This document shows positions 17,925 through 33,286 of a stretch of 64,000 nt of DNA, piece after piece. The notes beneath the pieces were generated by a model that saw only the letters and a program-made list of their open reading frames with translations, ran no database searches and was not told the origin of the DNA. The stretch's first letter is position 1. Each line of letters begins with the position of its first letter. The DNA is taken from assembly GCA_024867545.1 (NCBI GenBank), contig JANFNE010000018.1, positions 992,001 to 1,056,000 of the forward strand, in the 5' to 3' direction. Made by a program: the position numbers and the translations under genes. Origin of the DNA: Phytopythium helicoides. Lineage: Eukaryota; Oomycota; Peronosporomycetes; Pythiales; Pythiaceae.

Positions 17925-19660
17925 CTATGGACCGTCTTCCGTGGCGTCCGCGACCCTCGCGAGCATCTGCGCGGCTGCGGCCCTGGCTGCGGTCGCACGG
18001 GCGGCCACGGCGTCCAGCGAGCGGACGCGGGCGGCCCACTCGGCCACGGGGTCGCTGGCGGGGCCTCCGGGCTTGACCGTGGCCGCGGTCTCGGCGTCCT
18101 TGACGGCCGACCGAAGAGCCGCCACGAGATCTGCACACAGTCTCCGCGTGGTGGTAGCCACCTCGTCCTGGTCCTGGTCCTTGTCCGCGGCCTTCTTCTT
18201 GCTGCGGTGCCCCACGGCGTCCAGCAGCCTCGCGAGGCTGTCGTGGTCATCCGATGGCAGACTTGTCGTGGATTGTGCCGTCCCCAGCGTGGTCGGCTTG
18301 GACGGTGACGTACGCAGCGTGGATAGTGCGGCCACGCTGCGGCTGTGGATGGACTGTGGAGGCGGGGATGGAGACCGCGACCGCGAGCGACGCAGGTCCT
18401 GACGGACCTTGGATTCAGCTCCAGCCGCGATGGACCGTACGCGAGCGTCTTGTGGTCGCTGGGACGCCAGGCGGCCTCGTCGTGCGTCGTTGCGGCGCAC
18501 GTCATCCCACCACCGTCGACTCACGACAAACACGAGTGGCATGTTGTCCGCCGCTAGCGTTGCCTCCACGAACAATTCACTGCCAGGCTCCGACATGGAT
18601 GATTGATCTGGGATGCCTAATGTGGACGGCGTGGCCCGTGCATCCACCTCACGGCCGCGGTACACGGCCAGCCAGCCGCTGGCGTCTGCAATGTGACTAC
18701 GCTTGCACATCAATGGCAGTAGCTGGGCGAACGCAGCAGAAATGGGGACGTTGGAGAGGGTGAGGCCTAGTGGCGACGTCAGCGCTGCCGCAGACCCAGG
18801 ATGCACGACTCGGAATCGCAGCGTCGTCGTCGCTGCAGTCGACGGCAACGATGCGTCACCGCCCGTCCGCAGTAGGTCCACGCAGTGACTTCCAACGCGG
18901 ATCATGTGTTGGGCCAGCGGATCGTCCGGTCCAAGCACCGCCATGATTGCCATGCGAACATCAACAGCAGCTAGTGGCGAACTGGCAATTGGCAATCGGT
19001 CGCACACGGCGTTGAGCAACTCGCGCACGACAGCGCTCAGCATAGCTGTGGCATTGTATGAGAGCGAAAAGGCCGGATGGGCACCCTTGAGCACGGCAGC
19101 AAACTCGGACTCTGCGAACGGGTCGTCGGCTCGCCTCGCCCACTCGGAGCGTGTGCGTGCGTGGCGCTGGATGAGTCGCTCCTCGTCTTCGTCTGCGTTC
19201 GCTGATGCTGCTGCTGCCTTCTTGAGGTGCGGCGCATCGCGCGAGGCCAGCAGCCGCCTCTCGTGTAATTCACGCGATGTCGCGTCGTCAAGGAAGAACT
19301 CGAGCACGAGCGCGACGCCCTCCACGCGTGTCAGTAGCCCCGAGAGGATCGAGTGTCCGCGCAACGCCAGCTGAAGGTGCAGCACGCTCAAACGCGGCTC
19401 TTGCCCCCGGAACAGGTCCAGCGCGGCTGCAAACAGCAGCTCGCACAACGCCTCGACCACGGCAGCACAGAATGCCGCGGCTTCCTCCTAGCGACGGCAA
19501 GCGGAGCGTGAGGCGAAGCAATGCTGATGTCGACAGATGTCACGAACGCTACCGTCACGGGCTGGCCGAGCCCCTTGGCCAGCGTAGAGCGCAGCGGCAC
19601 CGGGTCCAGCGCCAGACGCCGGCGTAGCGCGCGGTGGCCACGCTCAGGGTCAGCTCGCAT
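17925..19660 (-). CDS. H2A-like/H2B-like histone-fold doublet fused to a SUMO/ubiquitin-like domain
   Basis: Two exons: 19660-19553 (36 codons) and 19487-17925, joined across a 65-nt intron (GTAGCG...CTAG), giving 556 aa. Residues about 13-100 match histone H2A: basic tail, LALDPV..L...LAKG for the alpha-N helix, AAVVEALCELLFAAAL for alpha-2, then LHLQLALR and ILSGLLTRV. Residues about 164-244 match H2B: VLKGAHPAFSLS, AMLSAVVRELLNAVCDR, AVDVRMAIMAVL, and PLAQHMIRVGSHCVDLL for alpha-C. Residues about 258-345 look like a SUMO/Rad60-type beta-grasp: LRFRVV, FAQLLPLMCK, YRGREVDARATPSTLGI, GSELFVEA. The C-terminus is Arg/Ser-rich, then helical and Ala-rich. Relative to H2A, the DEE of the acidic patch is HSI. 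Relative to H2B, the K120 position is Leu. There is no C-terminal Gly-Gly. A specialised chromatin protein is inferred. Fold assignments rest on motif alignment by eye. Confidence 0.8.
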
Positions 19661-20078
19661 GGGTCCATGCAGCTCGTCCTCGCTTGCCGCACGTAATTAT
19701 AGCCGCAATGGTGTGGATGTTGAAGCACGAATGTAGCCATCTCACGTTGAAGTTGTCGTCAAGATTCGAGTACCGTAAAATCGGTACGGTTTCGCATACC
19801 TGTACCAAAAAAGCGTATCAAACGAGACGGGTAGCGTCCCATACATTTTGCTAGATGCTGGCTGCCTCCATCTGTTTTTGCGTATGCGTTATGACAGGGC
19901 AATCACGCCAAACGATGGGTTGGGGCTAGGTGTCTGCGACATGTGTGTCCGGCGTCAACCGTCCGTTTTTCCCTTTTTACGTCAGTGCCTCATACTCTTC
20001 TCTAGACATTCCGGCGCCATCGCGTATCATGTGACTGTTCGATCCGACCGAAACGGACTAGCGTCGAATCTAGCGCCC
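19661..20078. promoter_or_regulatory. divergent promoter spacer
   Basis: About 420 bp separates the ATGs of the histone-fold fusion (minus) and the HAD phosphatase (plus), so both promoters lie here. A pyrimidine/purine-poor stretch with GTACCGTAAAATCGGTACGG at about 19768-19788 contains an inverted repeat (CCGTA..., ...TACGG) that could be a binding site. Confidence 0.35.
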
Positions 20079-21146
20079 ATGTCGACAACAATAGCCGCCC
20101 TCATGGCGGCGGGCCGCCCTCATGGCGCGCTGCTCACTTCGAATCTCGCGCTCCAGGGCCTCGACGCTCCGCCTCCTCCTCGTCTCCACCGCCTCCGCAC
20201 GATGCTGCAGCTGCTGCGCCAGTCCGCTCGCCCGCTCCAGCGCGCGTTGCTACCCGCCGCGGCCAACTGCGCGCTGCTCGGCGGCCGCAGCTTCGCGTCC
20301 AACGCCGAGGCGCCGGTGCCGTCGCCCAGCGCGCCGACGGCGGCCGCCAGCCCCGCGTTCGCGTACCGCGAGCCTAAAGCCGTGGCTCCGGCGCAGCGCT
20401 GCGCGCCGGCGCTCGTCGTGTTCGATAAGGACGGCACGCTGATCGACTTTACGCTCATGTGGGGCGGCTGGGTCGAGTCGCAGGCGTGGAAGGTTGAGAT
20501 GACCACGGGGCTGCCCGTGCGCGAGAAGCTCTTTGACGCCATGGGCTACGACTGGATCCGGAGGTCCATCCGCTCCAAGGGGGCGCTCTGCTGCACGCCC
20601 ATGGGCGAGCTGTACAAGCTCGCCGTCAAGGTGCTCGTCACCGAGGGCATGGCCGCCGACCGCGCCGACGAGGTCATCCGCCAGTGCTGGAGCATGCCGG
20701 ACCCAGTGCTCACGAGCCGCCCGCTCGGAGACATCGGTGCGCTCTTCCGCTCCATCCAGCGCATGGGCATGAAGATCGCCGTCTGCACGACGGACGACCG
20801 CCAGCCGACCATCGACACGCTGCGCCACCTCCAGGTCGAGCACCTCGTGGACGGTCTCGCCTGTGGGGATGACGGACTGCCCGCCAAGCCCGCCGGCGAG
20901 CAGATCTGGACGCTCTGCCAGCAGCTTGGTGTTGCACCCCACAACACCATCATGGTCGGCGACACGTCCACCGACATGATGCTCGGGAGGAACGCTGGTT
21001 GCGGACTCTCAATTGGCGTGCTCGGCGGCGCATCCTCACTCGAGGACCTGGCCGAGGACGCAGATGTACTCGTGCCGTCGCTCGACCGCATCGTCAAGGT
21101 GCTGTTCCAGTACAGCCAGCAGGCTGCGCGCCATGCTGACGAGTAG
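20079..21146 (+). CDS. HAD-superfamily phosphatase, probably mitochondrial
   Basis: A phosphoglycolate-phosphatase-like haloacid dehalogenase hydrolase. All four HAD motifs are visible: DKDGTLIDF (nucleophile Asp and general acid), CTTD (motif II), the Lys in LPAKPAG (motif III) and GDTSTDMMLG (motif IV, Mg binding). A helical cap lies between motifs I and II (VESQAWKVEM to VIRQCWSMP). The frame is open from 19848. The ATG at 20079 or that at 20202 (MLQLLRQSARPLQRALL) is the likely start, because the latter begins an Arg/Ala/Ser-rich presequence with RSFASNAE, typical of mitochondrial import. The substrate is not deducible; metabolite repair of 2-phosphoglycolate-like compounds is one option. 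Divergent from the histone-fold gene. Confidence 0.85.
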   Translation: MSTTIAALMAAGRPHGALLTSNLALQGLDAPPPPRLHRLRTMLQLLRQSARPLQRALLPAAANCALLGGRSFASNAEAPVPSPSAPTAAASPAFAYREPKAVAPAQRCAPALVVFDKDGTLIDFTLMWGGWVESQAWKVEMTTGLPVREKLFDAMGYDWIRRSIRSKGALCCTPMGELYKLAVKVLVTEGMAADRADEVIRQCWSMPDPVLTSRPLGDIGALFRSIQRMGMKIAVCTTDDRQPTIDTLRHLQVEHLVDGLACGDDGLPAKPAGEQIWTLCQQLGVAPHNTIMVGDTSTDMMLGRNAGCGLSIGVLGGASSLEDLAEDADVLVPSLDRIVKVLFQYSQQAARHADE

Positions 21147-21277: not shown

Positions 21278-23905
21278 TCAAGGCAACCGCACCAGTAGGA
21301 TGGCCGTGTTGTCTAAACCGCCACGCACATAACTCTGTGCTGCGAGCTCTGTGGCGAGAGCGTCAAGATCAACTGCGTGAAAGCCGCCAGCTTGTCGGCA
21401 CCGCGCATGGATAAAGTGAGACACCTGTGCCGAGTCCATCGTCTCCCACAACCCATCACTCGCAAGGACGAGAAGACCAGCCTTATCTTGATGTGTCGTT
21501 GACAAGTCGAGATGGAAGACAGATGGCTCTGCGGTCACATATCGCCGAAGGTGACGATCGCCCAGGCTCCGAGAGACTGCGAGCTGGCCAACGACTCGCC
21601 AAAGTCCTTGAAAGTGCACAAACCCGCCGCTCGATTCGATCCGTGATCGCTCGGACGGAACATCTGGCCAGTGATCCATTGATAACGGCGCGATGACGAA
21701 CTCATGTGACGAATTCGATGCAGAATGTAGCCATACAAACGCTCGCGAGTCACCAACATTGGCCGCCACAATGCGATTTTCTCGAGGAAACAGCACTGCA
21801 ACTGTGAGTGTACAGCCAGAGAAGAGCGCTTCATCACCGCGTTCTTCTCCTTCACTGCGAGTTGCTCCCTTCGTCTCTTGCAAAAAGCGCTCGTGAAGCT
21901 CAAGAAAAGTCTGGCGGATAGCAATTTCTTCTTGGTGATTGCGCTCAGTTGTTTTTGCTAGGTCAGGGTCAGCATTGGCTTCTTTCATGGTGTTGGTTGG
22001 TGGCACGGCAGCAAAATTTCGTGTCAGCGCTTCCACTAAGTGCTCAAGAACGAATGTGGCAGCCGCGTCACCCAAGTGTCCATCGCTGACAGCAAACACG
22101 ACAGGGTGGCTACCTTTCTCTTCTGAAGTGGCGGTAGCCAAGTCTGGCGCAGGCTGGACAAGCACGAAATCTTCCATATACTTCTTACGGCCTTGAAATA
22201 GTGCGATGCCAACATCGAACGATGCCGTGGAGGTCAAAAGTGGGTCGCTGTAGTTCGCAACTGTCGACAAGTTCACAAACGCGTGTGTGTTGCTGTTGTA
22301 GGTTTCGCGACGGACGGCATCAAGCACGCGTTCTGCGTTAAATGTGCAAAATTGTGAGCCGTTAGCATCGTAGTGTCGTCGAGCGTGGGTGTGGTGCTCG
22401 CAGGAGTCGAGCGTCGCAAATGATCGCTTGCATTTTGGACAAACAAACGCGTGGCTGCCGTCGCTTTCATCGCCTGGTAGAGGAACCCGTTCTCGCACAA
22501 CAAATGCTAGTGCGTTATCGCGGGCTGCTTGAGTACGAAGGTACCGCTCGTGCACATGCAGTTCTCTCTCGGTCGAAAACTTACGCCCAGTGCGCGCACA
22601 GACGTACGGGCCACGAAAAAACGCGTGGTTGAGTGCGTCCCGCGCCGATATGCGGTCTCGCGGAGACCACTGAAGTAGTTTCCACATGAGATCGAGTGCA
22701 AAAGGCAGCGCGAGTCCTTTGTGGAGCGGATCCCGCGCGACTACAGTCTCATTGAACTTGCCAAAGTGGCAACTATCACTCACAAGAGCGTACTTGTCCC
22801 AAAGAGATCGCAACTGGTTTGGCGGTGGCCGAAAGATGCAGAATTCGTGCGTTAGCACATGAAGCAGGTATGATTTTGACTGCTGTGCGCTTTTGTGATC
22901 CTCGTGCGAACCGGGTATAGAAGTGGAGTGCTTCTTACTATTCTTCCGCTCGCGTTGGCGCTGCTGCAATTCAGCATCAAGCTTCGCCTGAGCGCGAGAA
23001 GAGATGAGAAAGACTTGGGGAGACCCGAGCACCATCTCGAGGAACACGACGCCAACCGACCACATATCGTAAGCCAATGGGAACTCGAAGTCATATGGTT
23101 GTCCATCGTTGCTGAATAACACTTCAGGTGGCTGGTACTCTCGTGTTTCCTCAGCTTGACTCGGTCCTGAATCAGGAGGGTACAGGTGTTGTGCAGCATA
23201 CTCATCGACTGCAGAGCCGAAATCTGCGAGTTTTACCACAGGGATAGATACGTTTGTGCCGCTGACTACCGGAATCGTGAGAAGAATATTAGACGGCTTG
23301 ATGTCGCGGTGTGTGATTCCGCGGTTGTGTAGAGCCGCGACTCCCTCTAGCAGCTGCCGCATAATCTCACGAAGCACGAGCTCGCCCTTTGCATCGGCCC
23401 TCATCTTCTCCCAGAAGCGCGAGCGCTTGAGGATCACGCCGCTAGCTTCATGGCTACGCTTCGTTTGTGCCGAGCCTGCAAAAGTCTCTTGCTTCTCATA
23501 CAGAAAATGGCGCAGCGACATTCCTTCATCGTGAAAGACGAGCCAGAGCTCCGGTGTTCGTGCCGCTGCATCGTTGTTATCGCGTGCAGAACTGTCGCTG
23601 CCATGTTTTCCATCCGCTCCTCGAGGTGTTGGGGAGACAGTAGACGAAGTAGACGTGGAAGCCAGCGGTGGCCGGAAGAAATACTCGACAAAGCGCGTGA
23701 CGTGCGGCTCTCCCGCAAGGATTTCGCCAAAGTGTGCTTCTCGTAGCCCCATGTGCACCATCTCCTCACCGAGCTGCAAGAACAACCGCTTCAGTACAAA
23801 CTTCGGTGCATTCACAGAGTGTCCATCGGTGGCCGCAGTCGCCTTCCACACTTCCCCGTGTGAGCCCGCGTCAAATCTGTCCTTGAGCCGGTAGTGTGCG
23901 TTCAC
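21278..23905 (-). CDS. protein kinase - zinc finger - PP2C phosphatase fusion
   Basis: One frame encodes opposing activities. Residues about 5-430 form a Ser/Thr kinase: FDAGSHGEVWKA (Gly loop), FVLKRLF (ATP Lys), GITHRDIKPSNILL (catalytic loop), KLADFGSA, REYQPPEVLF, YDMWSVGVVFLEM. About 435-520 carry two zinc-finger-like segments (YVCARTGRKF..HVHERYL; CPKCKRSF..CEHHTHARRH). About 560-875 are a PP2C phosphatase: GRKKYMEDF, VSDGHLGD (family FDGHGG), SGCTLTVAV, ANVGDSRAFVW, VSRSLGD, LASDGLW, GGLDNTAILLV. Metal-binding Asp residues are present. Kinase-PP2C proteins are known in plants and oomycetes. This frame has no ATG before the Gly loop: its first possible start is GTG at 23905. Translation must therefore begin upstream, and the frame continues unbroken into 23936-24430 except for one TAG. 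Confidence 0.9.
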   Translation of the reverse strand: MNAHYRLKDRFDAGSHGEVWKATAATDGHSVNAPKFVLKRLFLQLGEEMVHMGLREAHFGEILAGEPHVTRFVEYFFRPPLASTSTSSTVSPTPRGADGKHGSDSSARDNNDAAARTPELWLVFHDEGMSLRHFLYEKQETFAGSAQTKRSHEASGVILKRSRFWEKMRADAKGELVLREIMRQLLEGVAALHNRGITHRDIKPSNILLTIPVVSGTNVSIPVVKLADFGSAVDEYAAQHLYPPDSGPSQAEETREYQPPEVLFSNDGQPYDFEFPLAYDMWSVGVVFLEMVLGSPQVFLISSRAQAKLDAELQQRQRERKNSKKHSTSIPGSHEDHKSAQQSKSYLLHVLTHEFCIFRPPPNQLRSLWDKYALVSDSCHFGKFNETVVARDPLHKGLALPFALDLMWKLLQWSPRDRISARDALNHAFFRGPYVCARTGRKFSTERELHVHERYLRTQAARDNALAFVVRERVPLPGDESDGSHAFVCPKCKRSFATLDSCEHHTHARRHYDANGSQFCTFNAERVLDAVRRETYNSNTHAFVNLSTVANYSDPLLTSTASFDVGIALFQGRKKYMEDFVLVQPAPDLATATSEEKGSHPVVFAVSDGHLGDAAATFVLEHLVEALTRNFAAVPPTNTMKEANADPDLAKTTERNHQEEIAIRQTFLELHERFLQETKGATRSEGEERGDEALFSGCTLTVAVLFPRENRIVAANVGDSRAFVWLHSASNSSHEFVIAPLSMDHWPDVPSERSRIESSGGFVHFQGLWRVVGQLAVSRSLGDRHLRRYVTAEPSVFHLDLSTTHQDKAGLLVLASDGLWETMDSAQVSHFIHARCRQAGGFHAVDLDALATELAAQSYVRGGLDNTAILLVRLP

Positions 23906-23935
23906 ATACAGCCGCTCTAGATCTGCCTCAACGTA

Positions 23936-28231: not shown

Positions 28232-31200
28232 TCACGCGATGTGGAACTTTGGCTGGCTGGAGATCATCTCGGGCCGGATGCCGTAGCAGAGGTTGGTCTC
28301 GCAGAAGCGGCGAGAGAGCTCGAGCGTCTGCCGCTGGCCCTTGACGCGCACGCTCACGCGCGTGGGCAGCCGCGTGTCGATCCATTGCAACTCCAGTAGC
28401 AAGTGCGGCATGCCCAGCAGAGGGTAGTCGGCCCCGCCTAATGCCTGTCGATGCGCGAGCCGTTGCACGGCCTCGAGCGTCCACACGTGACGCTTACTCT
28501 GCGCCAACGGAAGCAGCACGCGGTGCCGCCGTCCGTCACGGAACTGCGCGACGTCAATCTCCACCTCACCCAGCCGCTCCAGTCGAGCAAATGGGTCATT
28601 GTTGTACACCACGACCTTGACCGTGCGGTCGCCAGCTACTTCGGTTGTGGCTACGTTGATTGGAGGCAGTGGTGTCACGGCTGCTGGGCTGGTCGTGGAT
28701 ACACTGGTAGTGGTCTCAGCAGGTGGCGAACCCGCCGAGTCAGCTGCGAGCAGTGGGAAGACAAGCTGCTCGTCCCATACAGGGCTGGCCGCACGGCGCT
28801 TGATGCTGGTGGAGTGGCGAAATTGCTGCACGCCAGCTGCGTGGGCAGTCAAGACGCAATAAGGGTCGACGCTACCTCCACCACGTGTCGACCGGAGGTT
28901 CTGCGCCTCGACCACCTTTAGGTGCATCTCGTTGGGAGACGGACGAACAGGATTGCCCAATCGATCGCGCGAGTCGACTCCCACCACCGTCGCCTCCAGC
29001 CACCGCCCAAACTTGCGCGACGCCAGCAGCACCGGCATGCCCACTTCAAAGATCTTGACTGGCGTCGGATCCATTAAAACGTGTCGCTCGTGACTTGCGA
29101 GCCATACCTCACCACCGAGAGGATCGGCCCGAGCCCCTGCACCAGCACCATCCTCACTCAATTTGCGTCCACCAGAAAAATTGACCTTGATGCGGCCATT
29201 TTTGACCCATGATACAGTGCCTTCACGCCATTCAATCGACGGGACCGGCTCAGTTGCCTTTCCAGGGCCACGAGTCATGTTAAGAGTTCCGCTTGCTGTT
29301 GATCGGCGATGGCGCAATTCACTGCTGTCTCGAGATGGAGCACCAGGGTTGATGCCGACGACCGGTGCGATTGGTGGGACGCTCAAATCGACGGAGAACA
29401 GCAAGGTTGGGTCGTCAATAACATCATCGTCGTCAATTTTTTCTTCGTCTTGCGTTGTGAGCAGGATCTTCTCAGCATCGGATCGACTGCGAGCAGTAGA
29501 ACTACTTGCAGCGAGATACGGCGCAGGGGGTGCAGATCCAGGCAGAGCATTTGGCTGAACTGGGCCAACACTGACGAGAATACTCTCTCCAATCATCCGC
29601 ACCGACTTTCGTAGGTTGTGACGCAACTTTCGCGTGTGAGCGACGACCTTGATGGCCGTCTCGCTCGAGATGTCGCTCTTCATAAAGTACACGACGAAGC
29701 AAACTGCGATGCCAACATTCTCCAAGGAGCAGAACGACGCGAGTCTCTGAGCTCGTGTAAGGCAAACGCCAGGGCCGTACAACTCGTCAGAGATATTGCA
29801 CTCTTTGAAGAAAGCATCGAGCTGCCCACTAACGTATACTAAGAGCGCGGGAACAATCACCTGCGCCACGAAAATCTCGAAAATGAACGCACTGAGCCAC
29901 GGGCCGATGCCCACCGTTCGGCGAGGAATCGGGCGTTTACAGTCAATTGTCATCTTGATTGCGTCGAATCTCAGCGCGATGGTGTTGCGTGCAAACGAGC
30001 AAAAGCAGCAGAATGGCCACACCACCGAGAACATGATCGTGTACGAGAACTGAATCGCTAGGTGCAGGAGGTCTCCAAACGGTGAGTATACGCCCATAGA
30101 CGACTCCTCCATGATGCGGTCCGCCGTGTAGTTGTAGTTGCGGCACTGCCAATTAGTCACGAGGCGAAGTTTGAGCGCGCGTGATGCATGTCGCTCATCT
30201 CCGCCGTCGGCGTCATCCTGACGAGCTGCACCTCCTGCCTCCATCGTAGCCGTGGCAGTATCCCAGAATCCCCTCAAAACACCCGCCTCCTCGATGCTTC
30301 GAGCGATACGGTCAACCCAATCGTAGCTCGTGAGTTGGAACTCGTCCAGGTCATCGCGTGTGAGCTCACCACAGATCTCACTCATGTGGTGATCGTGGGA
30401 CGAGATACTCGAGAAGAGGTCTCGAATGGCGCTATCTAGCTTTCTTGCTGCGATCGGCTCTCGCTCTGTCAACGTCTTGCTCAGCTCCTGCCGATCGACG
30501 GCGTCGGTCAGAGTTACCCACTGTTCGACCTCATTGAAAGCATTGTATTCTGAGTCACTGGCTTCCAGGGCGTTGGCGTTTGAGAACGAGCCCGTTGCTT
30601 CGGAGCCCTCTACTTGATTGGAGTCGTTGCCACCCTTGGTTGGTGTTGCCAACTTGCTGCGCGCAGTTTTGCTTTTCTTGAGCACTGTCGAGAGTCTCTC
30701 CTTTTTCACGTGATACGAATCTCGCGCTCGAATGATCGCTCGCCGCAACAAATATGGCACGAACGTGTTGATGAGCAGATTGAGCGCCTGGGTGACGATC
30801 ATAGGAGTGACAAAGGCCGAATCCATGCTGATGAGTCCATCGACCCAATATCGACTGAAGCGAAAGTTGTAGTCGAGCGTGAAGACCCAGCTATTATCGA
30901 TGCGGTTGCGAATAGCTTCCTGTACATCAGCCCCATTTGGAACATAAACGAACGCGAGCAAAAAGAACCAGTAGAAATACCCAACCCAGTTGAAGAGGAA
31001 AATCTTCTGAATGCATCGAGTCTCGCTCTCTTGGTCGGTTTGATAATTCTCCCAGCGGTTGAAAGCTAGAGCTATTGCCTCAAAGATGGCAAGAAAGACA
31101 ATGTCAAGTGTCAAACCAAGAACGATGCCCTGGACGAGCACGTAGAACCAGCGAGCGGTGCCGACGATACCGCGCTCGGTTTCAAAGCACCCTATGAGTG

Positions 31201-33286
31201 CGGCATCACACCGATAGTAACTCCGATCGAACTTGGTCACATCGCAGTAATCGGAGCAACTGGTAATACTTTTCATAAAGAGATACGACTTCCCGTGACC
31301 AAACAGCTCGGCGCAGTGCGCTTCGCAGCCACCTTTTACGTCCAGAAACTCGGGGCATCGCGGGTCTGTGCACATTGGCGTCATGACGGCGATGATATAC
31401 CACTGGACGTAGATGCCGACAAGAACGAAGAGCAGCACGAGGCAAACGAAGCAAAACACAGTAAAGATAGCGTACTTCGGCCATCGTCGCCGTGCATCGT
31501 ATGTCTTGACTTCGACGTAGTCGGGCGGTTCACCTTCGTCGGCGACGTTGATAGTCTCGACGACATAATCTCGGAACTCGGAATTTGGCTGAGGGACCTC
31601 CTTTGTTCCAAGCAGATTCCACTCGACAAGCAATGAGTTCTGATACCGGCTCCAGCGTTTGAGGAACGACGGAGCCCAGATGAATGCGATGCAGAGACCG
31701 TAAATCCCCATTACCTTGAGATACCATCTGTAGTGGATCCATCGCAAGAAGATCCACAGAAGGATGCCGGCATTGGACGGATACACTAGCGCCGAGTTAT
31801 ACAGGCGCACAAAGGCCATGTAGAAAGCGATGCGGAGTCCAAAGTAGTCTTTGAGTCGCAGCAAAAAGAGTCGCTTATACGTTGCTGTATGGCCTCCCTC
31901 TCCTCGAGACCACGATGTGAGGATGAAGTCGGTAATGCTTGGATCGTGCAGCGGGAAAACGTCGCGCACAACTCGGTCCTGGTTATTTTCTATACCTCGA
32001 AGACCCGCGCCTGGTGGTTTGTCTGTTGCGCTGCGGGTGAGTATGGAAGCAAAAGCTGCAATTCGATCCGAGGCTGTCATTGTCTCGCCATGATATTCGT
32101 AGTCATCTCCGACGTTGCGGGTGTCCTCTTCGGCATGATTCTCGATGATGCGCTCCATGGTCATGAGTTTATCTTCACGTGCGAGTAGCCAAAGTGGGGC
32201 ACTGAGCAGCAGGATGATGCAATTGAGAGTGTTCCGCGTATTCGCTAGCACCGTAACATGGATGCCAGCGCGCAGCAAGTTGAGCACGATTTTTTCTTGC
32301 GCATCCTGGAACTCGCCTCCCCGGTGGTTGTGGAGCACCAATACAAACTCAAAGTCCATCCGGGGCTGTAAGTTCAGCATGCGGACGACAAGCTCAGGCA
32401 GCCACACGCACTCAACTGTGTCGGCAGTAGCGAGGATGACCGACTCTTCTACGACTTTTGCGGACGCATCGACAACAGGCACGCCAAAGTGTTCTTGATA
32501 CCCGAACGACTCGATTGGCGACACTGCATCCAAGCTGCCGTTCGTAGCCGGGAACCGCCCGGCCGAGCCTGATAACACGATATAGAGTCCATCAGAGGCA
32601 CGTTCGTCGGAGAGAATGATGTCGCCGGCGTCATATGCTCTGAGCTCAGACACGCTGACGAGCTGCGCGAGCTCGTGATCGCTTAGTGTCGCAAATTCTT
32701 CGACTCCGGCTAGGAACTTCTTTCCTGCCTGGATTTTTGGGTCGCCGTCGTCGATCTCCTCGGCCATGTCCTGGTCGTCGAAGCGGAAGAAGCGGTGCAC
32801 CGCCTTGCGCATTTCCAGGAGAAGCGATCCAGAATCGCTCGCGGACCCCGGCCAGAAGGCGCTAAATACGCTGCTTCCATCGGCAGGAGAGCCATCGGCA
32901 CCGTCGAGCAAGTCGGAGCTGCTGCTATGTGGATTGCTGCGGCCGTCTCCACGGTTTGGTGTCGCCGAACGAGACGCGTACAGCGAGACGCCAATGTGCT
33001 GGCGTAGCTGTGCTCGCAGCGCCTCCTCCTGGTGCTCATTGAGCTCATTGTGCCGCTTTCGGTAGATACGCGGCGCATCGCCGCTGGGCGGCGCCAGCAA
33101 GGGCAGCGAGCCCGTGGGCACGACGTCCATCTCAAATGCCGCTGGTTTTCCACCATGGGCGCTCGGTGGTTTCGCCGCCTCTTGGGTTGGGGTCGGCATT
33201 TGCGCAACGACCGCCGAGCTAAGCATAGCGCTCACTTTTGTGTCGGAGTCGGAAGGTCTACATTGATTTGTTTCGCTCACACCCAT
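28232..33286 (-). CDS. anoctamin/TMEM16-family membrane protein with cNMP-like and C2 domains
   Basis: 1684 aa, intronless. Residues about 195-305 resemble a cyclic-nucleotide-binding domain (LRAYDAGDIILSDERASDGLYIVLSG). The phosphate-binding cassette lacks the usual FGE..R(S/T)A, so nucleotide binding is doubtful. The anoctamin core follows (about 320-1260): the cytosolic FEFVLVLHNHRGG region, FPLHDPSITDFI, then around ten hydrophobic spans (GILLWIFLRWIHYRWY, FTVFCFVCLVLLFVLVGIYV, FLFNWVGYFYWFF, WLSAFIFEIFVAQVIV) and a Cys-rich extracellular loop. The C-terminus has an SH3-like stretch (GMPVLLASRKFGRWLEA) and a C2 domain at about 1450-1590 (MHLKVVEAQNL, DPYCVLT, SPVWDEQLVFPL). TMEM16 proteins are calcium-regulated channels or lipid scramblases. 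Which activity this one has cannot be told. Confidence 0.88.
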   Translation of the reverse strand: MGVSETNQCRPSDSDTKVSAMLSSAVVAQMPTPTQEAAKPPSAHGGKPAAFEMDVVPTGSLPLLAPPSGDAPRIYRKRHNELNEHQEEALRAQLRQHIGVSLYASRSATPNRGDGRSNPHSSSSDLLDGADGSPADGSSVFSAFWPGSASDSGSLLLEMRKAVHRFFRFDDQDMAEEIDDGDPKIQAGKKFLAGVEEFATLSDHELAQLVSVSELRAYDAGDIILSDERASDGLYIVLSGSAGRFPATNGSLDAVSPIESFGYQEHFGVPVVDASAKVVEESVILATADTVECVWLPELVVRMLNLQPRMDFEFVLVLHNHRGGEFQDAQEKIVLNLLRAGIHVTVLANTRNTLNCIILLLSAPLWLLAREDKLMTMERIIENHAEEDTRNVGDDYEYHGETMTASDRIAAFASILTRSATDKPPGAGLRGIENNQDRVVRDVFPLHDPSITDFILTSWSRGEGGHTATYKRLFLLRLKDYFGLRIAFYMAFVRLYNSALVYPSNAGILLWIFLRWIHYRWYLKVMGIYGLCIAFIWAPSFLKRWSRYQNSLLVEWNLLGTKEVPQPNSEFRDYVVETINVADEGEPPDYVEVKTYDARRRWPKYAIFTVFCFVCLVLLFVLVGIYVQWYIIAVMTPMCTDPRCPEFLDVKGGCEAHCAELFGHGKSYLFMKSITSCSDYCDVTKFDRSYYRCDAALIGCFETERGIVGTARWFYVLVQGIVLGLTLDIVFLAIFEAIALAFNRWENYQTDQESETRCIQKIFLFNWVGYFYWFFLLAFVYVPNGADVQEAIRNRIDNSWVFTLDYNFRFSRYWVDGLISMDSAFVTPMIVTQALNLLINTFVPYLLRRAIIRARDSYHVKKERLSTVLKKSKTARSKLATPTKGGNDSNQVEGSEATGSFSNANALEASDSEYNAFNEVEQWVTLTDAVDRQELSKTLTEREPIAARKLDSAIRDLFSSISSHDHHMSEICGELTRDDLDEFQLTSYDWVDRIARSIEEAGVLRGFWDTATATMEAGGAARQDDADGGDERHASRALKLRLVTNWQCRNYNYTADRIMEESSMGVYSPFGDLLHLAIQFSYTIMFSVVWPFCCFCSFARNTIALRFDAIKMTIDCKRPIPRRTVGIGPWLSAFIFEIFVAQVIVPALLVYVSGQLDAFFKECNISDELYGPGVCLTRAQRLASFCSLENVGIAVCFVVYFMKSDISSETAIKVVAHTRKLRHNLRKSVRMIGESILVSVGPVQPNALPGSAPPAPYLAASSSTARSRSDAEKILLTTQDEEKIDDDDVIDDPTLLFSVDLSVPPIAPVVGINPGAPSRDSSELRHRRSTASGTLNMTRGPGKATEPVPSIEWREGTVSWVKNGRIKVNFSGGRKLSEDGAGAGARADPLGGEVWLASHERHVLMDPTPVKIFEVGMPVLLASRKFGRWLEATVVGVDSRDRLGNPVRPSPNEMHLKVVEAQNLRSTRGGGSVDPYCVLTAHAAGVQQFRHSTSIKRRAASPVWDEQLVFPLLAADSAGSPPAETTTSVSTTSPAAVTPLPPINVATTEVAGDRTVKVVVYNNDPFARLERLGEVEIDVAQFRDGRRHRVLLPLAQSKRHVWTLEAVQRLAHRQALGGADYPLLGMPHLLLELQWIDTRLPTRVSVRVKGQRQTLELSRRFCETNLCYGIRPEMISSQPKFHIA

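Follow-up and report, generated by a model that had tools for sequence, protein, structure and literature searches.

Double histone folds in known proteins and in an oomycete gene

Several families of proteins carry two histone folds in one chain. A 2026 review (PMC13088155) lists archaeal and bacterial families, Sos, ABTB2, SPT3 and the animal HSIH proteins as cellular double-histone-fold families, notes that the order of the folds varies between families and states that Sos has lost its nucleic-acid-binding electrostatics. The Sos H domain mediates intramolecular contacts (PMC13088155) and is also described as a lipid-binding double histone domain (PMC11390915), and a regulatory role has been proposed for ABTB2/Cca3 (PMC13088155). 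Fused core histones are regarded as unconfirmed in eukaryotes by Talbert et al. 2022 (PMC9145170). Here we analyse a two-exon gene on the minus strand (positions 17925–19660) of a 64,000-nucleotide stretch of DNA from Phytopythium helicoides (hereafter the window; contig JANFNE010000018.1, positions 992,001 to 1,056,000), whose product was confirmed by sequence profiles and a predicted structure to join an H2A-like fold, an H2B-like fold and a SUMO/Rad60-type beta-grasp domain, in this order, in one chain. A first-pass annotation, made from the DNA letters, had read the three domains in this way and had named some giant viruses and engineered constructs as the places where covalent H2A–H2B doublets are known. 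Its surprise is fair where true histones are concerned (PMC9145170), but the statement is too narrow, since double histone folds occur in eukaryotic Sos, ABTB2, SPT3 and animal HSIH proteins (PMC13088155).

By description, the H domain of Sos (PDB 1Q9C and 3KSY, as given in PMC13088155) resembles the P. helicoides protein in several respects: both are parts of eukaryotic multidomain chains with a pair of histone folds, both differ strongly in sequence from core histones, and both have lost DNA-binding charge. The order in Sos is H2B-like then H2A-like, whereas the oomycete protein is H2A-like then H2B-like and adds a SUMO-like domain. Sos has RasGEF-type modules after its H domain. It is known from animals and Capsaspora (PMC13088155), whereas the family studied here comes from oomycetes. 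ABTB2/Cca3 is likewise a eukaryotic double histone fold joined to protein-interaction domains, but by description these are ankyrin repeats and a BTB domain, in animal proteins, and not a ubiquitin-like domain. SPT3, a subunit of SAGA, has tandem histone folds in one eukaryotic chain and is found in protists too, but the review describes it as a single-domain protein without a ubiquitin-like domain (PMC13088155). The HSIH proteins are one-chain H2A/H2B-like pairs, some of them in the order H2A-then-H2B (PMC13088155); they are at least 60% identical to core histones and single-domain, whereas the oomycete protein is highly diverged and multidomain. Giant-virus doublets are also covalent H2A/H2B pairs, with the order H2B–H2A in Marseilleviridae and the reverse in Indivirus and Klosneuvirus KNV1, the latter being the order of the oomycete protein (PMC9145170). 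Marseillevirus doublets form nucleosomes (PMC13088155), whereas the oomycete protein has lost the charges.

In the main text of the review, the terms oomycete, Phytophthora, stramenopile, ubiquitin and SUMO never occur, and Sos, ABTB2 and SPT3 are not described there with a ubiquitin-like domain (PMC13088155). The kind of fold is known; the family and its fusion to a SUMO-like domain are undescribed in the open-licence literature that we searched.

Three segments match H2A, H2B and SUMO

Three protein searches gave 40 relatives (designated P0001 onwards), which together with the window protein make up a family alignment of 41 rows. The second search, which used an alignment of six sequences as query, yielded nothing beyond the five proteins already found, and the third, with a region of P0003 as query, revealed the wider family. 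For segments 1, 2 and 3, separate profiles were made from 8, 9 and 8, respectively, of 12 representatives out of the 41 rows. Each was run on its own against 177,635 distinct PDB sequences at E values up to 10, and the best 60 of 197, 174 and 125 matches were assessed for segments 1, 2 and 3, respectively. As the first-pass annotation had anticipated for its two histone folds, all 60 listed matches of segment 1 were H2A (best E value 0.0091; one is an H2B–H2A fusion) and all 60 listed matches of segment 2 were H2B, fusions to H2A included (best values, tandem H2B at 4.4e-5 and single H2B at 2.1e-4). The matches listed for segment 3 were SUMO, ubiquitin, parkin, ubiquitin variants and fusions, with tandem SUMO2 (3.4e-6) and single SUMO (0.001) as the best; two rows were IscB, presumably SUMO-tagged. 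Because the PDB is rich in near-identical nucleosome histones, these row counts overstate independence, and it is the specificity of the matches that matters. When whole-protein profiles were used, a six-sequence profile matched both halves of a PDB H2B–H2A fusion (1.3e-7) as well as SUMO (0.0024), and a 41-row profile ranked tandem SUMO2 first (3.2e-5), followed by H2B–H2A fusions and H2A.

As a control, segment profiles were compared by hhalign with single proteins of the same genome. After length filtering, 20 rows were left for segment 1 (11 of 31 dropped) and 40 for segment 2 (1 of 41 dropped). Segment 1 matched H2A with an E value of 8.3e-6 and a probability of 83.5, and H2B, H3, NF-YC and NF-YB only at 0.28–0.83. 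For segment 2, H2B came first at 0.0034, with H2A, H3, NF-YC and NF-YB at 0.07–0.4. An NF-Y-type pair was rejected on these values (NF-YB/NF-YC at 0.07–0.83, against 8.3e-6 for H2A and 0.0034 for H2B). At the level of sequence comparison, the firmer assignment is H2A by the hhalign test and H2B by the PDB profile.

Several results were weaker. The hhalign probability for segment 2 and H2B was only 9.5, and no H2B-only row appeared among the best 60 of the 41-row whole-protein profile. The sequence of the window protein alone was merely suggestive in phmmer (H2B at 0.039, H2A at 0.15), and its open reading frame matched no Pfam family at E values up to 10. When the members were searched singly against Pfam at E values up to 0.1, the 41 together matched 18 families, and PF00125 was absent from these. 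Rad60-SLD had the largest number of matching members, all weak (6 of 41, best 0.0014), and ubiquitin in 2 of 41 (0.013); Pfam alone cannot single out the ubiquitin-like domain, since weak matches to Tubulin_3 (5 of 41, best 0.0052), which we took as chance, stand beside those to Rad60-SLD. Nevertheless, the agreement is more than chance, because each segment, searched on its own, matches a different family, the order is the one first read, and relatives share the layout.

Predicted structure and domain boundaries

The relative P0002 was modelled with AlphaFold 2 on the 41 rows. The model contains both sets of histone helices (fold 1, residues 25–32, 41–71 and 83–92; fold 2, residues 175–185, 193–213 and 229–240), four short handshake loop strands (38–39, 80–81, 190–191 and 226–227) and a beta-grasp, as the first-pass annotation had expected of a structure prediction. 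Block values of the predicted local distance difference test (pLDDT) were 74–94 for residues 41–130, 84–95 for 191–260 and 88–97 for 291–350, with both alpha1 helices weaker (55–67). The model thus has two complete histone folds in sequence within one chain, and its SUMO/Rad60-type domain has a predicted beta-grasp fold. A model of exon 2 of the window gene, which leaves out alpha1 of fold 1, gave the same order of elements at a mean pLDDT of 57, with loop strands at 32–33 and 141–142, and one histone-dimer fusion chain aligned over 133 residues of the predicted window model. The predicted loop strands would fit a handshake within the chain. Foldseek and VIA searches with the P0002 model listed no histone among the best 50 rows; we took these lists as uninformative, since the ubiquitin-like domain fills them.

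Transferred to the P. helicoides protein, the H2A-like fold covers residues 21–100 (19296–19600, minus strand as for all features of this gene) and is split by the intron. Helices mapped from the P0002 model lie at 21–28 (alpha1), 37–65 (alpha2), 71–80 (alpha3) and 82–100 (alphaC), and the fold is indicated by the model, the PDB profile and hhalign alike. A linker with conserved FLDDATS and RSEWxxRxDDPF motifs (residues 101–161, 19113–19295) leads to the H2B-like fold (residues 162–250, 18846–19112), which bears the VLKxxHPAF(S/T)LSYNA loop. The histone signatures HxQ..LR of H2A and VLKxxHP of H2B are still present. The SUMO/Rad60-like beta-grasp (residues 254–360, 18516–18836) begins only a few residues past the H2B-type C-terminal helix; in the P0002 model the helix extends to 263 and the first strand starts at 269. 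The domain has an insertion of about 25 residues before its last strand. The first-pass annotation was right in recognising a beta-grasp domain here, but the string GSELFVEA with which it closed the domain belongs to the insertion, and the last strand aligns with PLVFVVSRRWW of the window protein.

The resemblance to SUMO/Rad60-SLD consists of the beta-grasp, a SUMO-type TPxxLxM motif and the rank of SUMO as best among the PDB matches listed. Unlike SUMO, the oomycete domain is internal, has no Gly-Gly end and passes directly into a conserved basic helix with the motif WWDxxRRxEARRG, rich in tryptophan and arginine (the WW-RR helix; RWWDDVRRNDARRGRLASQRPQDA.., residues 361–404, 18384–18515). 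The remaining residues 405–556 (17928–18383) form an RS/SP-rich stretch and C-terminal helices that are poorly conserved, with a mean identity of 24% between the window protein and the others.

Gene structure and conservation in oomycetes

The gene encodes 556 amino acids. Exon 1 (19553–19660, with the start codon at 19660) specifies residues 1–36, in which a short basic helix at the N-terminus precedes alpha1 of the first histone fold, and exon 2 (17925–19487, stop codon included) specifies residues 37–556. Between them lies an intron of 65 nt (19488–19552, GT..AG, phase 0), proposed in the first-pass annotation and borne out here. The spliced exons join in phase 0; without splicing, translation from this start codon would meet stop codons. 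Exon 1 aligns with the N-termini of P0002, P0003, P0006, P0008 and P0009. Full-length P0002 and P0003 are uninterrupted across the exon join and start at positions about equal to that of the window protein; at the join, P0002 reads 'RALRRRLALDFRPLKDTLAKGL..VDPEAAVYCTA' and the window protein 'RALRRRLALDPVPLRSTLAKGL..VT|EEAAAFCAA'. The starts of P0001, P0004, P0022, P0023, P0027 and P0028 lie at most a few residues from the junction, as expected of open reading frames cut at the same intron. Homology to relatives that continue across the intron position makes the exon join sound and supports the splice at 19552–19488. In P0012 and P0020, extra residues occur at the intron junction, and in P0021 in the H2A-type loop 2; these resemble mis-called or retained introns in the gene models. 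When the 49-Mb genome was searched with the protein encoded by exon 2, the gene itself was the single match, and no further copies were found.

An organism name is present for 25 of the 40 relatives, and all 25 are oomycetes, belonging to Phytophthora, Nothophytophthora, Globisporangium, Pythium and Lagenidium, each of which we take to be an oomycete genus. Because the search needs shared 5-residue words, absence outside the oomycetes is not claimed. All three segments are present at high coverage in 22 of the 41 rows, so that the three-domain order, which the first-pass annotation had suggested looking for in oomycete proteomes, does recur there. Among the other 19 rows, 18 are short in segment 1 and P0036 lacks the ubiquitin-like domain. 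P0037 stands out by its length of 1068 aa and may be a fused gene model; a match to ribosomal protein L3 was found in one of the 41 members. Named records call the relatives only hypothetical, uncharacterized or unnamed protein. Judged from the alignment, the three-domain layout is conserved and defines an oomycete family.

Conservation is uneven along the chain. Mean identity over all pairs is highest among the compared stretches in the H2B-type alpha1–loop 1–alpha2 region (85%), followed by the WW-RR helix (75%), fold 1 (61%), the SUMO-like domain (55%) and the tail parts (38–39%). Within the H2B-type region, HPA is invariant (41/41).

A viral origin was considered and rejected within the reach of a viral-contig scan whose peptide patterns recover only fairly close relatives. 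With the family alignment as query, 18 stretches of the contigs fitted one of two such patterns, and none was confirmed as a relative. In a BFVD structure search the top match was a Clandestinovirus ubiquitin-like protein (A0A8F8KRJ4; E value 6.9e-6, 469 columns, template modelling score 0.10, root-mean-square deviation 37.7), which we treated as shared ubiquitin-like and flexible parts because of its geometry. A Klosneuvirus protein stood in the same list at an E value of 0.75.

Loss of nucleosomal and modifier features

Both histone folds are net acidic. Fold 1 has a mean net charge of −2.9 (in the 25 of 41 rows within length limits) and fold 2 of −3.3 (41 of 41 rows), the window values being −2 and −3, and the genome's own H2A and H2B folds carry +5 and +7. 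The mean for the ubiquitin-like domain is +4.4 (0 in the window) and that for the WW-RR helix +5.5 (+7 in the window).

Equivalents of individual H2A positions were mapped from the hhalign alignment, counts being given over rows with a residue there; the numbering and roles of H2A and H2B residues follow textbook usage. The equivalents of the DNA-anchoring arginines R32 and R42 of H2A are replaced in 22 of 22 rows. That of R77 is K or R in 31/34, that of K36 is K or R in 19/22, and position 76 is T in 29/34; the window protein has P and R at 76–77. In the acidic patch of H2A, E56 is kept (30/30), E61 is found in 0/32 and E64 in 1/32, D90 is replaced by H in 36/37, and E91 is E or D in 4/37. 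E92 is E or D in 33/37 but I in the window protein, which keeps only E56 of the six. Four of the six acidic-patch positions are lost. Loop 1 of H2B contains T52, S56 and K57, residues near DNA, and their equivalents are F (40/41), Y (39/41) and N (37/41).

There is no lysine-rich N-terminal tail before the fold, which starts at about residue 21–25, only a short arginine-bearing helix. Gly-Gly after the ubiquitin-like domain was found in none of the 40 sequences with the WW motif, within 15 residues from the motif, and the window chain continues for nearly 200 residues past the domain. Nuclear-signal patterns are inconsistent (simple monopartite in 15/41, bipartite in 3/41, none in the window protein). 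Because the same genome has ordinary, separate genes for H2A (L008), H2B (L005, L006) and H3 (L001–L003), the gene does not replace the core histones. The features of a nucleosomal histone are, on this evidence from residues and charges, mostly lost, and the suggestion of the first-pass annotation that the protein could be a dimer paired in advance and carrying its own modification mark was not supported.

The same genome encodes a second, diverged H3 (L004, G000:C1:1501324-1501626). It has a long tail at its N-terminus and a break ahead of the final stretch, and Pfam matches it in two pieces; its sequence resembles that of a centromeric H3 variant whose gene contains an intron.

A probable protein-binding scaffold and its alternatives

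We consider that the gene probably encodes a diverged double-histone-fold pseudodimer reused as a Sos-like protein-binding scaffold and conserved in oomycetes. The two histone folds are predicted to clasp each other within the chain like a histone dimer. This pseudodimer would no longer wrap DNA as a histone and may instead have been repurposed to bind proteins, as in Sos. Sos offers a precedent by analogy, being a double histone fold without DNA-binding electrostatics that makes protein contacts (PMC13088155). Likely faces for a partner would be the near-invariant H2B-type loop 1, HPAF(S/T)LSYNA, and the basic WW-RR helix. Loop 1 is predicted to occupy the site of DNA contact of a canonical histone, and its conserved F, Y and N suggest a protein partner rather than DNA. 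The SUMO-like domain would serve permanently for interactions within this protein's architecture and would not be cleaved off and conjugated as a tag. The family adds to the review's list an oomycete group with a fusion partner absent from its main text (PMC13088155). It supports the idea that tandem histone folds had several origins and were put to new use in binding proteins, and it offers a well-defined, conserved target for work on genomes of the Phytophthora and Pythium type.

A less probable reading, though one with some weight, is that the protein acts in the nucleus by imitating an H2A–H2B dimer modified with ubiquitin or SUMO. Outside nucleosomes it would occupy chaperones, H3–H4 or readers of modified H2B, and its SUMO-like domain would take the position of ubiquitin on the C-terminal helix of H2B. 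In favour of such mimicry, the ubiquitin-like domain starts a few residues after that helix, and the folds rank as H2A and H2B among the matches listed, also when compared with NF-Y-like proteins. However, the loss of four acidic-patch positions, the inconsistent nuclear-signal pattern and the location of the strongest conservation in alpha1–loop 1–alpha2, not in the C-terminal helix, all speak against it. A specific form, in which an oomycete one-chain stand-in for the ubiquitin- or SUMO-marked dimer occupies or steers its readers or chaperones free of nucleosomes, seems to us rather improbable. We regard as equally doubtful a DNA-binding regulator of the kind proposed for ABTB2 or of the NF-Y kind, whose pseudodimer would hold DNA while the SUMO-like domain recruits partners. 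The T at H2A position 76, the K or R at 77 (P and R in the window protein), the basic residue often kept at K36 and the basic helix after the ubiquitin-like domain are consistent with such a role, but the folds are net negative, R32 and R42 are replaced throughout, and F, Y and N stand in place of T52, S56 and K57 of H2B.

The idea of a true pre-paired H2A–H2B histone, incorporated into nucleosomes together with its own mark, has the architecture as first described in its favour; it is very unlikely given the net acidic folds, the missing lysine-rich tail, the replacement of two arginines that anchor DNA, the loss of most acidic-patch residues, and the separate canonical H2A and H2B genes. Least credible of all is that the histone likeness is a chance similarity of short helical stretches and only the ubiquitin-like domain real. 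The lack of Pfam matches, PF00125 included, the phmmer value of at best 0.039 and the low hhalign probability for H2B would fit such an account, but the two histone segments differ in the histone that they match, which is the correct partner in every listed row, other histone-fold controls score worse, and the model has both folds.

Neighbouring genes

The double-histone-fold gene is adjoined by a gene for a HAD-type hydrolase (20064–21143, plus strand), transcribed in the direction away from it. Further along, an open reading frame on the minus strand (21278–23935) combines a protein kinase domain and a PP2C phosphatase (Pfam E values 3.1e-28 and 1.7e-38), with a C2H2-like cysteine/histidine stretch between the two seen by eye. 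An anoctamin channel is encoded at 28232–33286 (minus strand), preceded by a cyclic-nucleotide-binding match below the curated cut-off and followed by a C2 domain.
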